Assembly: GCF_000763295.1 (NCBI RefSeq)
Contig: NZ_JRJE01000006.1
Coordinates: 186,001-250,000 of the forward strand
Direction: 5' to 3'
Origin: Thalassospira australica
Lineage (GTDB): Bacteria > Pseudomonadota > Alphaproteobacteria > Rhodospirillales > Thalassospiraceae
DNA: 64,000 nt
Shown piece after piece: positions 33,353 to 60,722 of the stretch. Both the position numbers and the translations under genes were made by a program. The notes under the pieces are model-generated. The model had not been told where the DNA came from. It saw only the letters and a list, made by a program, of their open reading frames with translations, and did no database searches. The stretch's first letter is position 1. Each line of letters starts with the position of its first letter.

Positions 33353-34590
<1,238 letters not shown>

Positions 34591-34733: not shown

Positions 34734-34943
34734 ATGCAAGCAGGTTCAGTAGGGAGTGCAGCATATGCACCCAACCCGGTTCAGGTTCAACAGGCCGCAG
34801 CGCCAATTGCCGAAACGGGTAATAACGACCTGAATTCACCGCCGACACAGCGGATAGAGCAAGCAGCAGAAACCGAAACGTCGCAGCAGGCAGCCCCGCC
34901 GCCGTCATCGGGCCGTGGACAGGTAATTGATATTTACGCCTGA
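34734..34943 (+). CDS. Short disordered protein with GRGQ C-terminal tail
   Basis: A 69-residue protein, rich in Ala, Gln, Pro, Ser and Thr, that looks unfolded except for its end, SSGRGQVIDIYA. The same tail form, GGRGQVVDFLA, ends an otherwise different protein at 58400-58753. The ATG at 34734 has GGAG six bases before it; one four codons earlier (34722) is possible. It has terminators on both sides, so it is probably its own transcript. I do not recognise the family. A conserved extreme C-terminus after a variable linker suggests a binding tag or sorting signal. Confidence 0.7.
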   Translation: MQAGSVGSAAYAPNPVQVQQAAAPIAETGNNDLNSPPTQRIEQAAETETSQQAAPPPSSGRGQVIDIYA

Positions 34944-35026: not shown

Positions 35027-36100
35027 CTAGCGATATTTCAAAGCATGGCGAACGATTTTTTTCATAACGGTGGGCAGGGCAAATTCTGAAAGCCCGTCAA
35101 CGGTGGTCCAGCTACCTTCCATGTTATCAGCCTGATCCGCGCCAAGTGTGGTCGCCAGAACCGAGACCTTGAGATGGAAGTGGGTGAAGGTGTGCCCAAC
35201 TGTGCCGTCAAGTTCCGACCAGCTTGCTGTAACCGGGGCTTCGGACAGCATCACATCATCCGGGGCATCGATGGCGCGCCAGTCACTGCCTGGCACCTCA
35301 TAAAGTCCGCCCAGCAATCCCTTTTCCGGTCGGCGGCGGATCAGAATGCGATCATCATCCTCGCGCCTTATCCAGAAGGCATAGCCAACCCGGGTCGGCT
35401 TTGGTTCCTTTTTGCGTTTCTTTGGCAAATCCGGGGCGATGCCTGACTTTCGCCCTTCGCAATCTGCCTGCCATGGGCAGATGCCACATGCCGGATTACG
35501 CGGTGTGCAGACCGTCGCCCCCAAATCCATCAGCGCCTGCGCATAGTCGCCCGGGCGATCTGATGGCGTCAGGGCAGCCGACTTTTCCTTGATCTCGGGT
35601 TTGACGTCAGGAAGCGGCGTTTCAAGCGCAAACAGGCGTGAAATTACCCGTTCGATATTACCATCGACCGGGCTGGCATGTTGGTTAAAGGCAATGGCTG
35701 CAACCGCACAGGCGGTATAAGGGCCGATGCCTGGCAGCTTCAGCAAGCCTTCCTCCGTATCGGGAAAAACACCCTCATATTCGGTCGCAACGACCTTGGC
35801 GCATTTATGCAAATTGCGCGCACGTGCGTAATAGCCAAGCCCCTGCCAGGCGTGCAAAACATCATCAAGGTCCGCGTTGGCAAGGTCAGTCACGGTTGGC
35901 CAGCGTTTCAGAAATGCGGCAAAATACGGCCCCACGGTCTGGACCGTGGTTTGTTGCAGCATGATTTCGCTTAGCCACACGTGATACGGGTTGGGCGTTT
36001 CGCCGGGCTCTGAGCGCCAAGGCAAGGTGCGATGATGACGGTCATACCACTCAAGCATGGTCTGAGCGAGGCGCTGGGTATCCTGATGGGTGAAATGCAC
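35027..36100 (-). CDS. mutY: A/G-specific adenine glycosylase
   Basis: A 357-residue base-excision enzyme removing adenine opposite 8-oxoguanine. The catalytic glutamate is in SEIMLQQTTVQTV near residue 45, the helix-hairpin-helix is LLKLPGIGPYTACAV near 125, the catalytic aspartate is in PVDGNIERVISR near 145, and the iron-sulfur cysteines are CTPRNPACGICPWQADC. The C-terminal 130 residues form the Nudix-like lesion-recognition domain. It is divergent from dciA; their starts are 79 bases apart. Confidence 0.95.
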   Translation of the reverse strand: MHFTHQDTQRLAQTMLEWYDRHHRTLPWRSEPGETPNPYHVWLSEIMLQQTTVQTVGPYFAAFLKRWPTVTDLANADLDDVLHAWQGLGYYARARNLHKCAKVVATEYEGVFPDTEEGLLKLPGIGPYTACAVAAIAFNQHASPVDGNIERVISRLFALETPLPDVKPEIKEKSAALTPSDRPGDYAQALMDLGATVCTPRNPACGICPWQADCEGRKSGIAPDLPKKRKKEPKPTRVGYAFWIRREDDDRILIRRRPEKGLLGGLYEVPGSDWRAIDAPDDVMLSEAPVTASWSELDGTVGHTFTHFHLKVSVLATTLGADQADNMEGSWTTVDGLSEFALPTVMKKIVRHALKYR

Positions 36101-56405: not shown

Positions 56406-57740
56406 ATGACAGCACTCGAAGCAACCGGTAGATTGCGGCCATACGGGATTATGGTTGCCGATGACACTGCCCGCGTTTTTGACGCCATAGCGCAGCACGG
56501 CGGACGCGCGCGTTTTGTCGGCGGTGTGGTGCGCGATGCATTGCTTAAACGTGATCTGATCGACGTTGATATTGCCTGTGATCTTCCCCCCGAACAGACC
56601 CAGACAGCACTTGAAAAGGCGGGTGTTCGTGTCATCCCCACCGGGCTGAAACATGGAACCGTCACCGCAATCACCGAGGCAGGGGCCTACGAGATCACCA
56701 CCTTGCGCGTTGATGTGCTGACCGATGGGCGCCATGCCGAAGTCGCCTTTACCGACAGCTGGCTGGAAGATGCCAAGCGCCGTGACCTGACCTTTAATGC
56801 CATTTATTGCGATCTGGACGGCACGGTTTACGATCCGTTTGATGGGGAAACCGACCTGCGTGATGGGCGGGTGCGATTTATCGGGGTTGCCGAAAGCCGG
56901 ATCGCCGAAGATTTTCTGCGCATTTTGCGGTTTTTCCGGTTTCAGGCGTGGTTTGGACGTCCGCCTATTGATCCAATCGGGGCGGAGGCATGCCGTAATG
57001 CCGCGAAGGGCCTTCTGGATATATCGGTTGAGCGCATTCGTGATGAATTGTTCAAGCTACTGGCGTCGCGAAGCCCGGCCAGCACAATTGGCGACATGAT
57101 CGGCTTTGGGGTTCTGCCGGTTATTCTGCCGCAGCTGACACATACCGATTGTCTGCGCATCATGCAGTGGCTTGATAGCACAGCCTTGGCCGATCCAACG
57201 GTCCGGCCCGATCCGCTGCGGCGTTTGGCGGCCCTGTTTTCATCCAACGGTGCAGATGATGACGACAAGGGCCAAGAAGACAATCTGGCAGCCGCAGAGA
57301 AATTTGCACGCGGCTTGCGCCTGTCAAACGAAGAAACCGGCCGCTTTGCCGGCATGGTTGCACATGCGCCCTTGATCCACCCGAAAATGCCAGACGATAC
57401 CATTCGCCGCGATTTGTATCGGATGGGGGCGACAGCATTCCGCGATGCGGTTTTGTTGGCTTGGAGCACGCGGGCCGCCGTTCCGCCGCGCTGTAGTTCA
57501 GCGGAAAACGAAAAATGGAAAACTTTGTTGCAAGCTGCAAAAAATTGGCAACCGGTCAAATTGCCCATACAAGGACGCGATATCCTCGATGCGAGGCTTG
57601 CCCCGGCAGGTCCGCGTATTGGTGAACTGTTAAAACAGGCTGAGGAATATTGGCTTGATCATGCGTTTGCACCGGATCGGAATGAATTGATGACATATCT
57701 GGCACGCCAATCACCGGCGCGCAAAAAGGAGACGAAATGA
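56406..57740 (+). CDS. cca: CCA tRNA nucleotidyltransferase
   Basis: A 444-residue class II tRNA-nucleotidyltransferase adding or repairing the 3' CCA. The head domain has RFVGGVVRDALLKRDLIDVD near residues 35-54, with metal-binding D-x-D, then VTAITEAGAYEITTLR and RRDLTFNAIY. The neck contains EDFLRILRFFRFQAWFG. The alphaproteobacterial length (about 400-450) includes a longer tail domain. It overlaps the GDSL gene by four bases (ATGA). Confidence 0.94.
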   Translation: MTALEATGRLRPYGIMVADDTARVFDAIAQHGGRARFVGGVVRDALLKRDLIDVDIACDLPPEQTQTALEKAGVRVIPTGLKHGTVTAITEAGAYEITTLRVDVLTDGRHAEVAFTDSWLEDAKRRDLTFNAIYCDLDGTVYDPFDGETDLRDGRVRFIGVAESRIAEDFLRILRFFRFQAWFGRPPIDPIGAEACRNAAKGLLDISVERIRDELFKLLASRSPASTIGDMIGFGVLPVILPQLTHTDCLRIMQWLDSTALADPTVRPDPLRRLAALFSSNGADDDDKGQEDNLAAAEKFARGLRLSNEETGRFAGMVAHAPLIHPKMPDDTIRRDLYRMGATAFRDAVLLAWSTRAAVPPRCSSAENEKWKTLLQAAKNWQPVKLPIQGRDILDARLAPAGPRIGELLKQAEEYWLDHAFAPDRNELMTYLARQSPARKKETK

Positions 57741-58396
57741 GCGCAAGCGCAACGGGACATCGGATTTGCTGTTTTGGTGACAGTCTGGTTAATGGCGTTC
57801 GCGATCAGGAAAAGGGCGGCTGGCCTATGCGTTTGGCACGACGTCTGTTGGCTGACGCCGGGCGCGAAACCACGATTTATAACCTTGGTATCCGGGCTGA
57901 AACGTCAGAAGGGCTCAAGACCCGCTGGCTGGAAGAAGCAGAACGGCGCATGGTTGCTGATTTCCCGACCGTTTTGATGTTCAGTTTTGGCGTAAATGAT
58001 GCCAATCATGCTGAAGACCGCGGCGAAGAAACCACCATGCGGGTATCACCGGCGAAATCTGCGGCCAATGCCGCAGAGATTATTGGCGCGGCTTCCAAAC
58101 TTGCGCCAACCCTTTGGATTGGACCTCAAGCCGTGATTGATGGCAGCAAATCCAGTCAGGAAATCAATCAGCGCCTGGAAGGGATAAACCAGATTTATCT
58201 GGAAACCGCACGCGGCTTTGATGTGCCCTATCTTGATCTTCATGCGACGACACTGGCCGATGAAACATGGCAGCGCGCATTGCGGCGCGGCGATGGTTAT
58301 CACCCCGACAAGGCGGGTTATGATCGTGTGGCCGAACTGATTTGGGATTGGGATGGTTGGCAAAATGCCCTTGGTCTGAATGATCCGTCGTCCTGA
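57737..58396 (+). CDS. GDSL/SGNH hydrolase
   Basis: A 219-residue SGNH-fold hydrolase. Block I is CFGDSLVNGVRDQEKGGWP near residues 12-30 with the nucleophile serine; the oxyanion glycine is in YNLGIRAETS; block III is FSFGVNDANH; block V is GDGYHPDKAGYD with the catalytic Asp and His near 190. There is no signal peptide, so it acts in the cytosol. The substrate is unknown. It converges with the GRGQ-tail gene, three bases away. Confidence 0.88.
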   Translation: MSASATGHRICCFGDSLVNGVRDQEKGGWPMRLARRLLADAGRETTIYNLGIRAETSEGLKTRWLEEAERRMVADFPTVLMFSFGVNDANHAEDRGEETTMRVSPAKSAANAAEIIGAASKLAPTLWIGPQAVIDGSKSSQEINQRLEGINQIYLETARGFDVPYLDLHATTLADETWQRALRRGDGYHPDKAGYDRVAELIWDWDGWQNALGLNDPSS

Positions 58397-58399
58397 TAC

Positions 58400-58753
58400 T
58401 CAGGCAAGGAAATCCACGACCTGTCCACGGCCCCCGGCGGTATTGCTTGCGGTCGCGTTTGCCGATCCGTTTGCGCCATAACCAACCGGGTCGAACTGTT
58501 CAACATAGTTTTCCAGAACCGTTTCTTGCGTCCCGTCACTGATGAACTGGCGCTGTTCATTGCGGTCACGTTCAAAGGCGCGGACAGCCCGTTCCGCTTC
58601 CTGATCTGATGTCTGGCGCGCACGACTGTTGCCGTCAACATACTGGTCCTGCTGGACCTGTTGTTGTTCAGATTGCTGTCGCTGGGCAATTGGGCTTGTC
58701 GGGCGAACAGGAAGCGTGTTTTGAAGATCGGATGATGAGGTCAGGTTGACCAT
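58400..58753 (-). CDS. Disordered protein with GRGQ C-terminal tail
   Basis: A 117-residue hydrophilic protein, rich in Gln, Arg, Asn and Ser. A central helical stretch, about residues 45-85 (DQEAERAVRAFERDRNEQRQ), is followed by Ala/Asn low complexity and ends GGRGQVVDFLA. That ending matches the short protein at 34734-34943. No signal peptide and no known domain. The ATG at 58753 has no clear ribosome binding site, so the exact start is uncertain. It lies downstream of the EAL-CBS-GGDEF gene on the same strand, 127 bases apart, with a palindrome between. Confidence 0.65.
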   Translation of the reverse strand: MVNLTSSSDLQNTLPVRPTSPIAQRQQSEQQQVQQDQYVDGNSRARQTSDQEAERAVRAFERDRNEQRQFISDGTQETVLENYVEQFDPVGYGANGSANATASNTAGGRGQVVDFLA

Positions 58754-58880: not shown

Positions 58881-60722
58881 TTAAAGCAGCTTGGGTTCTG
58901 CTGCATCGTTGCTGCTGGCGTCATAGACGCCGCTTGCAAATCGGCTTGGGCTGGTCTTGGCAAGCGCCTTGAGCTTGGCAGCTTCGATTGAAATGTGATC
59001 AAGGGTAATGTCGGTACGTTCGGCCGGAAGCCGAACCATGGCCGCACTTACACTCATCAAATCAAAACGAACCTGTTGGCCGTCACGCCCCTTGCCCAGA
59101 AGATAGCCGCGTTCACGGGTTTCCGGATCATAGAAACTTTTGATCTGTGCGTCGAACATTGCTTGCGCGCGCTGGACGGCATCGACGGCATCTTCAAAAT
59201 CAATCGACTGAACATAGGCAAAGAAATCATCACCGCCGATATGGCCGACAAACCAGTCATTCTGACTAAGGGCTTTGCCAAGAATATCCTTGAAAAGCAG
59301 GATCGCACGATCCCCTTGGCGAAAACCATAGCGGTCGTTAAACGGTTTGAAGTTGTCAAAGTCGAAATAGACAGCAAAACGCCGCCGCCTTGGTTCCGCA
59401 AGCGCACGCGCAGCATAGCGGTAAATCGCGCTGTTACCCGGAAGCCGCGTGAGCGGGTTTTCATCGCGGGCGTTCAAAGTGTTGCGTTCATTCACTGCGC
59501 GCAAAAGTGCACTTTGATCCAGAACACCCAGATACTGCCCATTTTCCGTCAGGATCACACCGTCCAATGCCTCTGTCGCGACAAAGGTTTCCAGCAGTTC
59601 TGAAAGACTGGTGCGAATATCGGCGACTGGGCATCGACGCAGAAAACGTTTGGTGTTGGCCCGGTTTGCTGGGTTTTGCAGCAGTTCACGGCCAAACGGC
59701 GTGTAAATAAAGGCCTTGAATTCCGAATCTCTGACAATGCCCAGTGGTTCGCCCCGCTGGTTGACCACCGGAACAAGCGAGATATCCGGATTTTGTTGGA
59801 AATAGCTCAGGATATCGACCGGATTGATGTCGCTTGGCAGTGCCGGGGTTTCAAGCAGATAGGATCTGACAACATCGTCGTCCTGATCTGATTGGCGGCG
59901 CGAGTCCGCAGCAATATCCGCAGCAACCGGTACAAGGTCGGTTTGCTGTGGAAGGTCAAGCGAAGGTCGGGCGATAAAGAAACCCTGCACAAGATCGCAG
60001 CCAAGACGGCGGCAACATAGAAACTCTTCGCGGGTTTCGACCCCTTCGGCGACGACCTGCGCGGCGATCATATGGGCAAAGGCGGTGATTTGTGTGACGA
60101 ACAGTTCCTTGCGCCGGTCACGGTCAATGCCGTCGATAAAGAACCGGTCGATCTTGATGATGTCGGGTTCGCATTCATAAAGGGCGCGCAACTGGGCAAA
60201 GCCGCTGCCGTAGTCGTCAATGGCGATTTTGAAGCCCTGACTGCGATAGCGCAGCAGGATATCCTGCAGGTATCCGGCATTGCTGATGTCGTGGCGTTCA
60301 GAAATCTCAAGGAAAATGGTGTCGCGTTCCAAACCCGCATCTGCCAGAAGGGCAGCCGTCTGACCGGGTTGGTAATCCTCGGTCTTGATCACGCGGTTGT
60401 CGAAATTATAAAAAAGCTTCAGGCGCTTGGCGCTGGGAAGTTTTGCGAATTTTTCAATCGCCTTGGCACGCAACAGCATATCGACTGTGTGCAGGTTGCC
60501 GGTATCCCATGCGGTATCAAACAGTGCTTGGATGGAGTTGAACCCGGCCTCGTCCCAGCGGCGCAGCAACGCCTCATAGCCAAACACATGGCCTGTGTGC
60601 GGACTGACAATGGGTTGGAAAGCGAAGTCGACTTTCTCAACCACCTGCTGCCAGTTGCGCAGCATGACCGGCTGGGTCATGGGCCTGTTGGATATCCACT
60701 GTTCATCTGCATCAAACGTCAA
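58881..60722 (-). CDS. EAL-CBS-GGDEF cyclic-di-GMP protein
   Basis: A 613-residue cytosolic protein with the order EAL (about residues 20-265), CBS pair (about 295-420), GGDEF (about 440-600). The EAL domain keeps its catalytic set: YEALLRRW, NFDNR, FLEISERH, IDDYGSGFAQL and VVAEGVETREE. The GGDEF loop reads HIGGDDFFAYV, a conservative GGDDF variant, and FDFDNFKPFNDRYGFRQGD binds metal and substrate. So it may both break down and make cyclic-di-GMP, with CBS sensing nucleotides. Start is TTG at 60722 after GGGGAA; an ATG at 60680 is equally plausible. Confidence 0.92.
   Translation of the reverse strand: MTFDADEQWISNRPMTQPVMLRNWQQVVEKVDFAFQPIVSPHTGHVFGYEALLRRWDEAGFNSIQALFDTAWDTGNLHTVDMLLRAKAIEKFAKLPSAKRLKLFYNFDNRVIKTEDYQPGQTAALLADAGLERDTIFLEISERHDISNAGYLQDILLRYRSQGFKIAIDDYGSGFAQLRALYECEPDIIKIDRFFIDGIDRDRRKELFVTQITAFAHMIAAQVVAEGVETREEFLCCRRLGCDLVQGFFIARPSLDLPQQTDLVPVAADIAADSRRQSDQDDDVVRSYLLETPALPSDINPVDILSYFQQNPDISLVPVVNQRGEPLGIVRDSEFKAFIYTPFGRELLQNPANRANTKRFLRRCPVADIRTSLSELLETFVATEALDGVILTENGQYLGVLDQSALLRAVNERNTLNARDENPLTRLPGNSAIYRYAARALAEPRRRRFAVYFDFDNFKPFNDRYGFRQGDRAILLFKDILGKALSQNDWFVGHIGGDDFFAYVQSIDFEDAVDAVQRAQAMFDAQIKSFYDPETRERGYLLGKGRDGQQVRFDLMSVSAAMVRLPAERTDITLDHISIEAAKLKALAKTSPSRFASGVYDASSNDAAEPKLL

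Follow-up and report, generated by a model that had tools for sequence, protein, structure and literature searches.

Genomic context of two small proteins

The window, that is, the whole 64,000-nucleotide stretch of Thalassospira australica DNA analysed here, encodes two small proteins, P1 and P2, that end in GRGQVIDIYA and GRGQVVDFLA, respectively (Table 1). Both open reading frames and both tails were exactly as described in an initial annotation of the sequence, and its statement that the two proteins otherwise share only a Gln/Ala bias was broadly right; a P1 protein query missed P2 in its own genome. P1 was read from ATG 34734, which is preceded by GGAGA. A longer frame opens at ATG 34722, and since two orthologues carry TAG at codon 3 of this frame, between the two ATGs, 34734 was taken as the true start.

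Table 1. Positions in the window of P1, P2, their tails and the adjacent genes
Feature	Position	Strand	Context or basis
P1, 69-aa small protein	34734..34943	+	between ccrM and mutY
P1 tail GRGQVIDIYA and stop	34911..34943	+	pN/pS, pattern matches
ccrM-type adenine methyltransferase	33391..34590	+	PF01555, PF18755; upstream of P1, context
mutY	35027..36100	-	PF00730, PF14815; convergent with P1, context
P2, 117-aa small protein	58400..58753	-	convergent with GDSL gene; downstream of EAL/GGDEF/CBS gene
P2 tail GRGQVVDFLA and stop	58400..58432	-	R, G invariant, D/N at -4 in 23 aligned orthologues
GDSL-type hydrolase	57737..58396	+	PF13472; convergent neighbour of P2, context
EAL-GGDEF protein with CBS domain	58881..60722	-	PF00563, PF00990, PF00571; neighbour of P2, context

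Searches of Pfam and NCBIfam assigned neither protein to a family, with no Pfam match for P1 and a single weak, unrelated one for P2. The Flg_hook/T3S4 domain of FliK (PF02120) and DUF1150 (LarA) were absent from both, and neither reached the curated cut-off of PF14070 (YjfB_motility). Judged from composition, the bodies of P1 and P2 look disordered. No flagellar gene lies beside either gene, both being located in housekeeping neighbourhoods, and a consensus scan found no sigma-70-type promoter upstream of P1 or P2, nor were sigma-28 or sigma-54 elements seen by eye in their aligned upstream regions. An ssrA/ClpXP-type degron, which consists of a C-terminal Ala-Ala, was considered and rejected, P1 ending in YA and the P2 orthologues in LA, LT, YV, YA, YI, HV or IV.

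As DNA, the pattern RGQ-Φ-Φ-D-x-x-[AV]-stop (Φ, hydrophobic) had two matches in the window and none in 100 shuffles, and across the whole 4.26-Mb genome its only matches were the P1 and P2 sites (reversed control, 0). The presence of only two copies in the window, on proteins with low-complexity bodies, is what a chance likeness of two C-termini devoid of function would look like; the shuffles already speak against such a likeness, as do the comparative data below.

Conservation within Thalassospira

P1 is encoded at the same locus in 29/29 Thalassospira genomes and was absent from the ccrM locus in the 58 loci recovered outside the genus; thus, P1 itself looks genus-specific. The ccrM gene of this genome is up to 99% identical to that of named Thalassospira records. 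The last nine codons of P1 had a pN/pS of 0.04 versus 0.22 for the body at a near-equal synonymous rate (0.45 and 0.47), which places the selection, strongly purifying, on the tail peptide.

For P2, protein searches detected orthologues in 23 of the 29 genomes. Among the 23 aligned sequences, R and G of the tail are invariant, position -4 is D in 20 and N in three, and positions -6, -5 and -3 are hydrophobic, such that variation stays within the pattern. The remaining six genomes also hold an open reading frame at this position, between the GDSL and EAL genes, whose body the P2 query fails to detect. Their ends, PRGNIVDLIA, PRGSIVDIVA, PRGSRVDLIA, PRGSRVDIIA (twice) and PRGSRVDLTA, fit PRG[NS][IR]VD[LI]xA. 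The P2 tail therefore outlives the sequence-recognisable body, and a tail-bearing frame occupies the P2 locus in 29/29 genomes, 23 by search and six by position. Both frames are thus conserved in all 29 Thalassospira genomes examined.

Distribution of the tail in the order and class

Outside the genus, RG-[polar]-Φ-Φ-[DN]-[VI]-x-[AV]-stop was matched in 36 of 136 genomes of the order, where the reversed control gave 0, and across the class 60 of 389 genomes were tail-positive versus 13 in the reversed control. Nearly all inspected matches, order- and class-wide, were small open reading frames with the tail at the end; at 29 of the 30 class loci read, the encoded protein is 57 to 122 aa long and terminates in the tail. 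In the order, the tail proteins are mostly ~60 to 260 aa and belong to several unrelated sequence types, including YjfB-like proteins, Arg/Gln-rich proteins and a family with the unit YPVxVNGYxCFSAxEVAAAR. The tail, whose general rule is RG-x-Φ-Φ-[DN]-Φ-x-[AV]-stop at the very C-terminus, is thus common to many unrelated small proteins, mostly in flagellum-bearing Alphaproteobacteria.

These matches in 36 non-genus genomes against none in the control, nearly all inspected ones being small tail-ending frames, together with the constraint on the P1 tail and the retention of the P2-locus tail in all 29 genomes, refute a chance likeness, which we now regard as exceedingly improbable. The original observation is real and was under-stated. 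Its proposal of a short C-terminal linear signal, for docking or degradation, following a disordered-looking body gains support from purifying selection on the tail and from its recurrence on dozens of unrelated small proteins.

Certain loci were encountered in more than one family or order. Two of them lie beside pgk (L109 and L268), as does a third judged by sequence (L116), whilst four others (L255 to L258) lie beside ftsY or DUF2336 in families f114 and f106. Class genomes can carry several tail proteins at separate loci, four in one (G292, L260-L263) and three each in G361 and G520. Adjacent small proteins that both have tail-like ends were observed near pgk in G118 (L109:4115-4357 and around 5050; RRGQIIDVIA with PRGFYLNITV) and beside a glnA-like gene in G078 (L123:46-327 and 372-656; HRGQIIDTEA with SKGKYVNIDI). 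Small tail proteins at L073, L215, L217 and L261 form a family in which a YPVxVNGYxCFSAxEVAAAR-like unit occurs once or twice, and the two members tested had no Pfam match. A rare larger carrier at L090, an open frame of ~360 aa that reads as a multi-span membrane protein, ends in RGQIVDINV.

YjfB-like relatives in the order and class gave sub-threshold PF14070 matches that cover almost the whole profile, tail included, and end in RGQLIDISA, RGQIVNILA and RGTKVNVLA; none of the alphaproteobacterial matches examined reached the curated cut-off.

Association with flagellar genes and likeness to FliK

Across the class, FliG was found in 53 of 60 tail-positive versus 175 of 329 tail-negative genomes (Fisher P 1e-7, with kinship and genome size uncontrolled), and in 7 of 13 reversed-control genomes, FliG-positive and FliG-negative genomes being about alike there. 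Within the order the link to flagellar genes was not significant (34/36 vs 89/100, P 0.51). Several tail matches in FliG-negative genomes are real proteins, three of them in family f114 beside ftsY or DUF2336, and no FliG match was obtained for the four carriers read at L255, L256, L257 and L258, three of family f114 and one of f106. Confinement of tail proteins to flagellated genomes was accordingly dropped, and the flagellar link is a strong tendency rather than a rule.

The end of the tail is that of a flagellar protein. Both P1 (VIDIYA) and P2 (VVDFLA) fit the FliK-type C-terminus Φ[DN]Φx[AVI]. FliK of the same genome ends in NGLVDIRI, that of E. coli in GVDIFA, and those across the order in GRVDIRA, GGVDLSA, DRVDITA, SGVDISV, RGVDIQV, NPRGQLDVVA and similar sequences. 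Among 1130 open reading frames of at least 40 aa from the window and the FliK contig (134.6 kb), Φ[DN]Φx[AVIT] ends only P1, P2, FliK and one doubtful 47-aa frame, and it ends none of 700 frames around fliG; in total, this C-terminus test of the T. australica genome spanned 214.6 kb (1830 frames), in addition to the pattern searches. Elsewhere, one genome encodes a 60-aa protein ending in RGQVINITV directly after fliI-fliJ. The initial view that no described family has this tail therefore holds for P1 and P2 themselves, neither of which falls into a Pfam or NCBIfam family, but not for the tail, whose last five residues are the C-terminal motif of FliK and which YjfB-like proteins carry. In the literature on LDIRI or the FliK C-terminal motif and small proteins, we found the tail described on no other proteins.

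Convergence on a strand-forming C-terminus could also account for the likeness, in which case the tail would be read by a scaffold, chaperone or polar protein unrelated to the partners of FliK. The longer motif of the small proteins (RG-x-Φ-Φ), their mostly non-flagellar neighbourhoods and the existence of FliG-negative carriers are all compatible with such a receptor. Against it, the pentapeptide is almost limited to FliK, P1 and P2 among the 1830 frames, and the carriers include YjfB-like proteins and a neighbour of fliI-fliJ; we consider a receptor of this kind rather unlikely. Separately, an L,D-transpeptidase-like protein (L337:6532-7029) ends in NGTPIDIYA; a folded enzyme, too, can bear the pentapeptide.

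A candidate receptor shared with FliK

FliK is the flagellar hook-length ruler. Export switching requires its last five residues, which are proposed to act on the cleaved C-terminal domain of FlhB (FlhB-CCD) (PMC10965912, PMC13344023); the way in which these residues flip the switch is a subject of ongoing work (PMC13344023). Caulobacter FliK depends on its final LDIRI both for degradation by Lon and for function, making these five residues a dual-role degron, and FliK lacking them is stabilised (PMC8545394). Lon also binds the small alphaproteobacterial protein LarA, by which it is activated, through the last five LarA residues (PMC10665427).

From these precedents, the tail could be purely a Lon degron, with the small proteins acting as short-lived regulators and FliK sharing the tail only because Lon reads FliK. 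The stabilisation of truncated Caulobacter FliK, the binding of LarA and the tail proteins of FliG-negative genomes would all agree with this. However, strict retention of R, G and D/N is not required of a degron, and enrichment in FliG-positive genomes is unexpected for a protease that is, to our knowledge, near-universal in Alphaproteobacteria. E. coli FliK moreover has the same end, and switching in Salmonella involves the last five FliK residues (PMC10965912). A role restricted to degradation is accordingly unlikely in our judgement.

Our preferred reading, held tentatively and at somewhat short of an even chance, is that the tail is a FliK-type C-terminal docking peptide whose receptor would be shared with FliK, namely FlhB-CCD and/or Lon. 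It is favoured by the near-exclusive sharing of the pentapeptide with FliK in this genome, the FliK ends of other genomes, the FliG enrichment, the fliI-fliJ neighbour, the low pN/pS of the P1 tail and the published roles of the FliK end as switch and Lon degron. Weighing against it are the housekeeping neighbourhoods, the promoter searches, the FliG-negative carriers, the order-level test, the rarity in FliK of the second Φ and an exact RG, and the possibility, exemplified by GTPIDIYA of the L,D-transpeptidase-like protein, that a five-residue match arises by convergence.

As FliK-type docking proteins, P1 and P2 would be small low-complexity carriers that present a free C-terminus to a receptor also reading FliK. 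The most likely such receptor would be the flagellar export gate at FlhB-CCD, through which P1 and P2 may influence the hook-to-filament export switch. Their tail peptide probably also makes them Lon clients, as for Caulobacter FliK, in which the last five residues have both roles. The two candidates are compatible: FlhB-CCD would account for the flagellar tendency, and Lon for the Caulobacter result as well as for carriers in FliG-negative genomes. More speculatively, and doubtful at present, a hitherto undescribed, tail-defined class of fast-evolving small proteins, mostly of flagellated Alphaproteobacteria, may mimic the FliK end and compete with or assist FliK at the FlhB switch (or Lon), so that numerous unrelated micro-proteins with nothing but the tail in common would tune hook-to-filament switching.

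The end rule RG-x-Φ-Φ-[DN]-Φ-x-[AV] brings together numerous hypothetical small proteins that homology searches leave unlinked, and relates them to a peptide whose role in FliK is known. Natural proteins bearing the FliK end would be direct probes of how the export switch is flipped (PMC13344023). If Lon is the receptor instead, it follows from the rule that Alphaproteobacteria should contain a great many Lon clients.

Comparison with known systems

P1 and P2 bear partial likeness to three known systems. YjfB_motility (PF14070), a putative motility protein family, likewise comprises small proteins, and its sub-threshold relatives carry the tail, although P1 and P2 leave the profile unmatched; the literature found refers to YjfB only as an uncharacterised protein of a flagellar module (PMC11607428). 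LarA (DUF1150), the Lon activator, is also small and has its unstructured last five residues read by Lon (PMC10665427), whereas its tail ends in Val-His and the RG/D motif of P1 and P2 is not described for it. Unlike FliK, P1 (69 aa) and P2 (117 aa) have neither a ruler nor a Flg_hook domain (PF02120), and RG-x-Φ precedes their pentapeptide, whilst FliK mostly lacks the second Φ and an exact RG. What P1 and P2 have in common with FliK is the final five residues, Φ[DN]Φx[AVI]-COOH, following a low-complexity stretch.
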